Shown piece by piece: positions 18,811-29,094 of a DNA stretch of 64,000 nt. Source of the stretch: Sulfurovaceae bacterium (GTDB lineage Bacteria; Campylobacterota; Campylobacteria; Campylobacterales; Sulfurovaceae); assembly GCA_028715055.1 (NCBI GenBank), contig JAQTLE010000001.1, positions 372,001 through 436,000 of the forward strand, given 5' to 3'. The notes under the pieces were generated by a model. The model saw nothing but the letters and a program-made list of their open reading frames with translations, was not told the DNA's origin and did not search any database. The position numbers were made by a program, and so were the translations under genes. How positions within the stretch are numbered: position 1 is the stretch's first letter; every line of letters starts with the position of its first letter.

Positions 18811-18906
18811 CGGGTAAACCTCATTTGTTTATAATGTCATTTTAGCATAACTTCTTATTGAAAAGCTACGAATAAAATGAACCAATTAAAATAATCTCCC
18901 TTACGA

Positions 18907-18912
18907 TATAAT
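18907..18912 (+). promoter_or_regulatory. Predicted -10 element of anmK
   Basis: TATAAT 30 bases upstream of the anmK ATG, followed by AAGG as ribosome-binding site. Confidence 0.45.
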
Positions 18913-18941
18913 AATATCCATATAAATGGATAAGGATATAG

Positions 18942-20063
18942 ATGAGTGAACTCTATATAGGTGTAATGTCAGGTACTTCCTTGGATGGTATAGACATCGC
19001 GCTGTGTCAAATAGATGCAAAGCAATGCACATTAATTGAGGCAGTGGAATATCCTTTCCCAAAAGAGTTAAAAGAACGTGTGCTAGAGATGATCGCCGGG
19101 CAGACAACCTTGCAAGAGGTTGGAGAGCTAGACAGTATGCTAGGGTCACAATTTGCTGGTGCTATCAATGAATTCATCATAAGTCACGATATAGATAAGC
19201 AGAACATCAAGGCTATCGGCGTGCACGGACAGACACTCTGGCATGCACCTAGCGGTAAGTATCCTACCAGTATGCAGCTGGGCGACCCCAATATCATAAA
19301 TGCCCGGTGTGGCATCCCTATCGTAGCGGATTTCAGGCGTAAAGATGTGGCTTGCGGAGGGCAGGGTGCTCCTTTCGCACCTGCATTTCATGCTTTCTTG
19401 TTCGGTAATATTGACCACAAGATAGCTGTCGTCAATATCGGAGGTATGGCAAATATCACAGTCCTTGGCGAAAAGACCATAGGGTATGATACGGGTTGTG
19501 GTAATGTCCTCCTAGATATATGGATAGCCAAACATCAGGGCAAGTCTTATGACAAAGACGGAGTATGGGCGCAAACTGGTAAAGTAGATTATGCTCTACT
19601 CGATGAGATGCTTTCAGATGACTACTTCGAGCAAGAGCACCCCAAAAGTACGGGCAGAGAGAAATTCAATGAGGCATGGTTGGAAGATAAACTTTTACGT
19701 CATTCCGGACTTGATCCGGAATCCAAAGAGATCCTGAAACAAGTTCAGGATGACAAGCAATTACAAGCAAATGTACAAAGAACTCTTTTAGAGCTCACAG
19801 CCATCAGTATCAGCAATGAAGTGCTGAAATTTCACAGAGACATGGTGCTGCTTTGCGGCGGGGGAGCCAAAAACAGCTTCTTAGTCGAACGCATTAGAGC
19901 AATGATGCCAAATGTGGAAGTGCTCGTAGCACAGCATGGAGATATGCTTGAAGCGATGATGATAGCATGGCTGGCATATAAACGTCTGCATAAAGAACCG
20001 GTAGATCTCAAAGATGTCACAGGCGCAAAGGTCAATGCCATTTTGGGAGGTCTGTATGAATGA
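18942..20063 (+). CDS. anmK: Anhydro-N-acetylmuramic acid kinase AnmK, carrying an in-frame palindromic element
   Basis: Opens and phosphorylates 1,6-anhydroMurNAc to MurNAc-6-phosphate in peptidoglycan recycling. Diagnostic motifs are GVMSGTSLDGID (7-18), GVHGQTLWH, VNIGGMAN, YDTGCGN and KSTGRE. Residues 253-271 are encoded by a double-palindrome repeat (19698-19754) that reads through without stop or frameshift. The insert lies between the KSTGRE-to-WLE region and the helix starting VQRTLLELTA, probably a surface loop. All recognised active-site motifs are kept, so the enzyme is likely functional. The end overlaps amgK by eight bases. Confidence 0.95.
   Translation: MSELYIGVMSGTSLDGIDIALCQIDAKQCTLIEAVEYPFPKELKERVLEMIAGQTTLQEVGELDSMLGSQFAGAINEFIISHDIDKQNIKAIGVHGQTLWHAPSGKYPTSMQLGDPNIINARCGIPIVADFRRKDVACGGQGAPFAPAFHAFLFGNIDHKIAVVNIGGMANITVLGEKTIGYDTGCGNVLLDIWIAKHQGKSYDKDGVWAQTGKVDYALLDEMLSDDYFEQEHPKSTGREKFNEAWLEDKLLRHSGLDPESKEILKQVQDDKQLQANVQRTLLELTAISISNEVLKFHRDMVLLCGGGAKNSFLVERIRAMMPNVEVLVAQHGDMLEAMMIAWLAYKRLHKEPVDLKDVTGAKVNAILGGLYE
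19698..19754. repeat. Double-palindrome element inserted in frame in anmK
   Basis: The left half is a hairpin ATTCCGGA/TCCGGAAT (19702-19722); the right half is ATCCTGAA/TTCAGGAT (19731-19752). The outer ends are GTCAT and ATGAC. Translation gives the peptide HSGLDPES...LKQVQDD, which is familiar as a recurring product of palindromic repeats in unrelated bacteria. One decayed half of the same type lies at 28821-28846. Confidence 0.85.
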
Positions 20064-20994
20064 CATAAAAGCCTGGCTAGAAAGCATCGGTTGGGATAAG
20101 TATAGTATCGAAATAGCCTCAAGTGATGCTAGTTTTAGAAGTTATTATAGAGTCAAGAAAGACGGAAATAGCTATGTGCTTATGGATTCGTCTCGTCAAA
20201 AAGAATCACTTGTTCCATTTCTAGATATGCAGCATAGGCTTTTTGGTGCAGGGGTGCGAGTACCGCAAGTTTTGCAAAAAAATCTAGAGCTCGGCTTCTT
20301 GATATTAGAAGATTTCGGCTCTACTCATCTGCTGGATATCTTGAATGCTGACAATCAAGAGAAATATTACAAAAAAGCAATAGAGCAGATAATCCTCATG
20401 CAAAAAACAGACGTTAACGGACTTTCTCCGTATGACAAGGATTTTTTGCTCTTTGAGATGAATCTATGTGATGAGTGGTATCTGCAAAAACATCTAAATA
20501 TCTCTTTGGACAGTGAACAAAAAACAAGATTAGATACTGTGCTTGAAATAATAGCCGATGAGGTTTTATCCCAGCCAAACGGCTATTTTGTTCATCGTGA
20601 TTTTCACTCAAGAAATATTATGATAGATAGTAATGATGATCTTGGAGTCATTGATTTTCAAGATGCCAGAGTTGGAGCGGTTACGTATGATCTAGTTTCA
20701 CTACTCAAAGATTGCTACTATGAGATAAGTGAATCAAAACGCAAAGATTTGGCTTTATACTTTAGAGATAAAGCTGACATAAAAGCGGATGATGAGACAT
20801 TTCTCAGATGGTTTGATATGATGGGGCTTCAAAGACATATCAAGGTGCTTGGAATTTTCGCTAGGCTTTATCACAGAGACGGCAAGGATGGGTATCTGAA
20901 GGATATTCCTTTGACGCTTAAGTATGTGTTGGAGACCGCAGTTAAATATCCGCAGACTGAGCCTTTGTGTGATATACTCAATAATTATAAATAA
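20056..20994 (+). CDS. amgK: MurNAc/GlcNAc 1-kinase AmgK
   Basis: Aminoglycoside-phosphotransferase-fold kinase of 312 residues, matching AmgK of the Pseudomonas MurU pathway, which phosphorylates MurNAc at C1. The N-terminal SSDASFRSYYRVKKDG, the catalytic loop VHRDFHSRNIMI and the metal-binding FQDARVGAVTYDLVSLLKD are the AmgK form of the APH motifs. The start at 20056 is set by GGGAGG upstream and overlaps the anmK stop. Its place between anmK and murU is the best support for this substrate. Other small-molecule kinases of the fold are less likely. Confidence 0.9.
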   Translation: MNDIKAWLESIGWDKYSIEIASSDASFRSYYRVKKDGNSYVLMDSSRQKESLVPFLDMQHRLFGAGVRVPQVLQKNLELGFLILEDFGSTHLLDILNADNQEKYYKKAIEQIILMQKTDVNGLSPYDKDFLLFEMNLCDEWYLQKHLNISLDSEQKTRLDTVLEIIADEVLSQPNGYFVHRDFHSRNIMIDSNDDLGVIDFQDARVGAVTYDLVSLLKDCYYEISESKRKDLALYFRDKADIKADDETFLRWFDMMGLQRHIKVLGIFARLYHRDGKDGYLKDIPLTLKYVLETAVKYPQTEPLCDILNNYK

Positions 20995-21134: not shown

Positions 21135-21812
21135 ATGATGAGAAAAGCGATGATATTAGCAGCAGGCAAAGGTGATAGGATGAGGCCTCTCACTGACCAT
21201 ACACCTAAACCACTCCTTGAAGTTGGTGGCAAACCTCTAATAATTTGGCACATAGAAAAACTAGCAAAGGCAGGATTTAAAGAAATAATTATCAATATCG
21301 CCCATTTAGGATACAAGATACCCCAAGCTCTTGGAGACGGCTCCAAATGGGGTGTGAAATTGCTTTATTCTGATGAGCAAAAAGGAGGTGGTTTGGAGAG
21401 TGCCGGCGGCATCGTAAAAGCACTCCCACTTCTTGGCAATGAGCCATTTTTGGTAGTCAATGGCGATGTTTGGTGTGATTATGAGTTTGATAAATCGTTT
21501 GAGTTGGGCGAAGGCATCTTGGCGCATTTGATACTCGTCCCAAATCCGGAACACAACACAAAAGGTGATTTTGATTTGCAAAAAGGATTGGTCACGAGTG
21601 AGGGCAAGGCTAGATATACATTCTCCGGTATAGGATACTATAGTCCAAATCTTTTTAAATGGCTGGAACATGGCAAACGAGCTCTCGGAGAAGTGCTTAG
21701 AGACACCATGAAGCATGATGCAGTTAGTGGCGAACTATACAATGGCATGTGGCGTGATATAGGCACGCCTGAGAGGCTAGAAGAGATAAACAATATTTAT
21801 GCCAATCAATAA
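21135..21812 (+). CDS. murU: MurNAc-1-phosphate uridylyltransferase MurU
   Basis: Nucleotidyltransferase that makes UDP-MurNAc from MurNAc-1-phosphate, bypassing MurA/MurB and so lowering fosfomycin sensitivity in Pseudomonas. The pyrophosphorylase signature MILAAGKGDRMRPLT at 6-20 is followed by TPKPLLEVGGKPLI, the MurU-like LESAGGIVKALPLLG, and the metal-site VNGDVW. The 225 residues match MurU rather than larger sugar nucleotidyltransferases. Two adjacent ATGs (21135, 21138) are possible starts. It is followed by two repeat copies and a convergent gene. Confidence 0.92.
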   Translation: MMRKAMILAAGKGDRMRPLTDHTPKPLLEVGGKPLIIWHIEKLAKAGFKEIIINIAHLGYKIPQALGDGSKWGVKLLYSDEQKGGGLESAGGIVKALPLLGNEPFLVVNGDVWCDYEFDKSFELGEGILAHLILVPNPEHNTKGDFDLQKGLVTSEGKARYTFSGIGYYSPNLFKWLEHGKRALGEVLRDTMKHDAVSGELYNGMWRDIGTPERLEEINNIYANQ

Positions 21813-28820: not shown

Positions 28821-28846
28821 CGTCATTCTGAACTTATCTCAGAATC
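28821..28846. repeat. Relic half of the anmK-type palindromic element
   Basis: Hairpin ATTCTGA/TCAGAAT bounded on the left by CGTC. It matches the reverse complement of the right half of the anmK element at about 20 of 25 positions. The expected second half is not recognisable. Confidence 0.6.
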
Positions 28847-29094
28847 TAAAATATCAACCAGATGAATCGATGAAATTTCGTAGAAGTACAACTATTATAT
28901 CACAATATAATTAAAATTACGTGAAAGTATTTTATTAATCTGGTTTCAATTGCTTCGATTGGAGCGCATACATCATTCTCAAATATACTATGCTGTTCCA
29001 TGGAAGACGATGAAAATGAGATTTGTTCGATAATGATCATAACTGTATTATTGTTAAAATGTTATTTTTTCTTTCTAGTAGATTGGTTTTTGTG

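Follow-up and report, generated by a model that had tools for sequence, protein, structure and literature searches.

An AnmK loop in the Sulfurovaceae appears to be a repeated insertion site for palindromic repeat DNA

The window, the whole 64,000-nucleotide stretch of a Sulfurovaceae genome that was analysed (genome G000; 1.76 Mb, 99.97% complete), contains an anhydro-N-acetylmuramic acid kinase gene, anmK, with a short palindromic repeat inside its open reading frame (Table 1). The Pfam match covers the full length of the protein (residues 4-372, domain positions 2-365 of 367, 421 bits), and the nearest solved relatives are 3cqy, 8bre and 3qbw. Two more genes follow on the same strand, the first of which has an ATG that overlaps the anmK stop (ATGAATGA). 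Together, the three genes probably encode the anmK-amgK-murU cell-wall recycling pathway.

Table 1. Genes and repeat features of the anmK region; coordinates are those of the window.
Feature	Position	Strand	Evidence
anmK, anhydro-N-acetylmuramic acid kinase, 373 aa, ORF intact with insert	18942..20063	+	Pfam PF03702, E 3.9e-126
CGTC-tagged REP head-to-head dimer, 57 bp, AnmK residues 253-271	19698..19754	+	fold, repeat model; absent from 88%-identical orthologue (L034, genome G005)
REP monomer 1	19698..19725	+	repeat model 44.1 bits, E 1.7e-8
Monomer 1 parts	tag CGTC 19698-19701; stem 19702-19709 / 19715-19722; loop CTTGA 19710-19714; tail CCA 19723-19725	+	pairing from fold
REP monomer 2, opposite orientation	19728..19755	-	repeat model 44.3 bits, E 1.6e-8
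Monomer 2 parts	tag TGTC 19755-19752; stem 19744-19751 / 19731-19738; loop 19739-19743	-	pairing from fold
APH-family kinase, probably amgK (name from family and position)	20056..20994	+	Pfam PF01636
Nucleotidyltransferase, probably murU (name from family and position)	21135..21812	+	Pfam PF00483
Lone CGTC REP-like monomer, outside long ORFs	28821..28848	+	repeat model 28.6 bits, E 1.7e-4

The 57-nt repeat (CGTCATTCCGGACTTGATCCGGAATCCAAAGAGATCCTGAAACAAGTTCAGGATGAC) is translated in frame into the peptide RHSGLDPESKEILKQVQDD. It consists of two similar palindromes in inverted orientation, each with a CGTC or TGTC tag, an 8-bp stem and a 5-nt loop; monomer 2 is identical to monomer 1 at 18 of 28 bases. 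The element folds at -14.1 kcal/mol, compared with a mean of -5.5 for shuffled sequences (z = -4.2), and none of 200 shuffles was equally stable. A repeat model detects both halves (E ~1.7e-8 in a search space of 214 kb), and no Rfam family reached its gathering score across positions 18900-20100. Sequence, ORF translation and fold bear out what the earlier note had read at 19698-19754, namely a palindromic repeat of two hairpins that adds 19 residues to AnmK and is read through without frameshift.

CGTC REPs were described in 2013 from five phyla, with a Sulfurovum strain among the hosts, and REPs within genes were reported in the same work (Di Nocera et al., PMC3733652). The anmK element shares with this superfamily an unpaired tag at one end of each monomer (CGTC in monomer 1, TGTC in monomer 2), stems that start with AT and, at 8 bp with 5-nt loops, lie within the 8-9 bp and 4-5 nt of CGTC REPs, a head-to-head dimer arrangement, a moderate copy number that includes further dimers in the host genome, occasional intragenic copies and the lack of a matching transposase in the genome. 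It differs in that monomer 2 ends in CTC instead of the CCA found in monomer 1, and most, not all, CGTC REP tails fit CCA (PMC3733652). The Rickettsia elements RPE-4 and RPE-6 are assigned to the same superfamily as CGTC-4 and CGTC-1, respectively (PMC3733652), and because of this assignment the parallel with Rickettsia palindromic elements drawn in the earlier note is apt. By its anatomy, the insert resembles intragenic RPE-4 and RPE-6 copies, with GTCAT/ATGAC ends, in-frame entry that leaves protein genes unbroken and the same sites occupied in orthologues, although its host is a Sulfurovum-like member of the Campylobacterota and its presumed kinship with the Rickettsia elements follows the published assignment. 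Inserts of this kind are already known; the point of interest is that several repeat families recur in one loop.

The element is an inserted multicopy repeat and not native AnmK sequence. An alignment with close relatives, suggested in the earlier note, finds it absent from the 88%-identical AnmK of Sulfurovum sp. UBA5622 (G005), where the loop is short, from the three solved AnmKs and from most orthologues, which have a loop of 22-25 residues like that of the solved enzymes. Relative to an empty loop the net gain is 17-18 codons, against 19 encoded by the element, and one or two native loop codons have therefore been lost or altered. The genome search that was likewise suggested yielded approximately 45 monomer matches in G000 with the repeat model. 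Among 26 sites found by search and read individually, the anmK copy is the only one within a long ORF, the others being intergenic by this ORF criterion. In a related genome, G006, CGTC REPs lie within an HsdM-like ORF (L200 2390-2417) and an ELM1-like ORF (L205 2439-2499). The statement in the earlier note that the same peptide recurs in unrelated bacteria gained nothing from a weak test, a tblastn search of the insert peptide against 72,556 plasmid records, which returned no match.

AnmK was found in 112 of 175 genomes of the family, and the loop was read in 86 genomes. We identified clear, intact, in-frame inserts between the FNxxW motif and the VQRTL helix in 23 of these 86 genomes, and the inserts derive from four unrelated repeat families: CGTC-type repeats (n = 9; G000, G159, G122, G100, G023, G003, G010, G006, G004), a hairpin with a 7-mer tandem array (n = 8; G151, G136, G142, G129, G138, G152, G158, G112), GTAG dimers (n = 5; G139, G134, G137, G132, G135) and a GGCTTCGACAGGCTCAGCC palindrome (n = 1; G093). 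CGTC inserts range in size from the single dimer of G000 to clusters of at least three monomers (G159, G100, G006, G004), which suggests that they grow by accretion. Judged by eye, G089 (decayed relic GQVQGDEQRQAD) and G097 carry probable relics, as perhaps do G108, G150, G106, G096 and G120.

By repeat-model and BLAST counts, each insert family is multicopy in those genomes whose AnmK contains it, and most of the other genomes tested have few copies or none. The CGTC family has 45 copies in G000 and 57 in G006 but none in G134 and G137, whereas the GTAG family has 34 copies in G134, 62 in G132 and 41 in G135, one in G000 and none in G003, G006 and G138. The hairpin/7-mer family has 9-57 copies in its carriers, three in G134 and none in G000, and the GGCTTCGACAGGCTCAGCC family has 14 in G093, six in G134 and none in G000 and five other genomes. 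The CGTC repeat is also found in genomes with an empty anmK loop, such as G005 and G008; a genomic repeat therefore does not force an anmK insert. Insertion into this loop is thus not a single event in the family, a point that the earlier note lacked. Since the same loop is filled by unrelated repeats, it appears to be a site at which repeat DNA is time and again converted into protein sequence. We found no description of such multi-family recurrence in the AnmK loop in the literature searched, of which coverage was partial.

On trees built without the loop, presence or absence of an insert requires 11 changes among 81 rows and 10 among 37 rows, and at least six of these changes are forced by well-supported branches. 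By family, the GTAG group is compatible with one origin, whereas the 7-mer group requires two changes and the CGTC group six. G000 pairs with insert-free G005 and not with insert-bearing G159 and G122 (support 98/90), and a single insert origin for G000 and G159/G122 was not rejected (AU p = 0.12). Distant CGTC alleles (L010, L051, L052 and L029) have in common the flanking residues KQLQA-N/D 3' of the insert, which possibly reflects recombination between alleles or an old common insertion. Some CGTC inserts may therefore represent one old insertion that was later lost or recombined.

Core dN/dS between pairs of AnmK genes, including pairs with insert-bearing members, is 0.06-0.22 (0.09-0.22 where both genes bear inserts). 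The gene thus evolves under purifying selection and the enzyme is probably functional, in keeping with the earlier note, which had called the kinase likely functional. Within one pair (G134/G137; L056, L058), dS is 0.24 in the insert region and 0.82 in the core, from few sites, a difference that may point to concerted evolution of the repeat or to constraint at the DNA level. A viral scan for AnmK returned a single match, to a 21-residue repeat peptide, and no AnmK.

A comparison with other genes leads us to reject AnmK as the sole gene of this kind. In FolC, the loop before the LxxIAxxKGW segment contains GTAG monomers in 13 of 30 loci (L258-L287), and other FolC loci have different in-frame repeats in the same loop (LRQAQEP type, GTCGAT hairpin). 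FolC was picked because of its insert in G134, so it shows that the pattern is shared and not how frequent it is. By eye, GTAG repeats of G134 also lie in ORFs resembling priA, a DEAD-box helicase, hisH, folC and a UvrD-like gene (L208, L211-L213, L218), and the priA-like ORF has the repeat at the same site in G134 and G135 (L222). AmgK, which adjoins anmK and serves as a partial control, has extra segments in 3 of approximately 41 orthologues read. Near residue 38 of AmgK, the segments added in G159/G122 and in G139 occupy one position but differ from each other (L051, L052, L054), and the G159 segment, which ends in the REP-like peptide EILKQTQDE, looks REP-derived.

No match to Y1_Tnp (PF01797), the one domain searched for in this connection, was found in G000 or G023, both of which carry CGTC inserts. 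This leads us to reject a RAYT as the mover of the window insert in G000 and is consistent with the 2013 study, according to which CGTC REPs have no dedicated transposase (PMC3733652). GTAG REPs mobilised by a RAYT are defined by a GTAG tag and a RAYT gene, and the window insert has neither, with its CGTC/TGTC tags and a genome that lacks a PF01797 match. They are related to the wider pattern in that one family of the AnmK and FolC inserts of related genomes consists of GTAG dimers and Y1_Tnp genes are common across the Sulfurovaceae. On contig G003:C46 (L042, L048), RAYT-like Y1_Tnp ORFs are flanked by repeated GTAG hairpins and form a candidate REP-transposase locus for this genus.

We consider it likely (roughly 80%) that a CGTC REP dimer, a type of small mobile palindrome that is non-autonomous, gave rise to the window insert by landing in a length-tolerant, probably solvent-exposed loop of AnmK through undirected insertion and selection for tolerated in-frame copies. 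The loop lies between the helix FNxAWLEDKL and the helix (D/N)VQRTLLELTA, and we place it probably at the surface because the solved AnmKs, when aligned, simply lack the insert; an AlphaFold2 model from a three-sequence input (pLDDT 40, pTM 0.32) was too poor to place it. REP-type elements would insert across the genome without direction, and selection would remove most insertions that fall in genes. The survivors would be in-frame, stop-free copies in the few loops where approximately 15-45 extra residues are harmless, and further copies may then join the same site and later decay to scars. Three of the six frames of the G000 anmK dimer are stop-free. Among the CGTC dimers read at non-genic sites in G000 and G006, 12 besides this one, only 2 have a length that is a multiple of three, so perhaps one in six insertions would pass in frame, to survive subsequently only in a tolerant loop.

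A different account of the recurrence, which we regard as improbable, is that one or more mobilising enzymes favour some DNA feature located here in anmK, regardless of what the protein tolerates. That all families enter within approximately five codons after FNxxW would fit such a preference, and enzymes of the IS200/IS605 type do use short guide and target sequences (PMC6006769). The four families are unrelated, though, with different tags, slightly different starting codons and no evident common target; moreover, most copies in G000 are intergenic and the FolC loop is equally hot.

We give similarly little probability to a single ancient insertion in the family whose copies have since become unrecognisable through divergence or given way to later repeats, a history of the kind put forward for Rickettsia RPE-4/6/7. 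Inserts are clustered on the tree, the KQLQA-N/D flanks recur in distant CGTC alleles, and an analysis of R. japonica that weighed hot spots against common origin favoured the latter (PMC3767692). Within the CGTC group, a single ancient insertion may have occurred. For all families it is disfavoured by the match between family and genome, as the inserts have different tags, stems and loops, and each corresponds to the repeats of its own genome, which would not be expected from divergence of one copy; most orthologues, furthermore, retain the short loop of the solved AnmKs.

It is very unlikely that the insert inactivates AnmK and that the gene is a young pseudogene still open by chance. AnmK is a recycling enzyme that may be dispensable, and many relatives lack the gene; against this reading, core dN/dS stays low in pairs of which both genes bear inserts, shared inserts remain stop-free in clades of several genomes and anmK overlaps the next gene of a probable pathway. 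That the residues are native to AnmK and merely resemble a repeat is rejected, as only their being in frame speaks for it and they are multicopy in the genome and missing from the nearest orthologue, from most family members and from the solved AnmKs.

Undirected insertion with selection for tolerated copies remains our preferred reading of the window insert. With four unrelated families in one loop across many genomes, each matching its own genome, our data point to a hot spot in the Sulfurovaceae. This occupation of one loop by unrelated families also sets the case apart from the published CGTC REPs, for which recB of two Xanthomonas species is reported to have REPs at approximately one position and further genes in the same functional category to have them at differing positions (PMC3733652). 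For Rickettsia, where common origin was favoured, the question of one origin or a hot spot for palindromes at one orthologous site was left open (PMC3767692), and the AnmK loop opens it to testing, with one small, well-studied enzyme offering numerous natural alleles in the empty, single, multiple and decayed states. A bolder proposal, which we hold to be doubtful, is that such loops are standing docking sites for unrelated palindromes, repeatedly filled, extended and emptied, whose inserts tune the protein or its mRNA. Were this true, repeat DNA would regularly supply these genomes with new protein segments.
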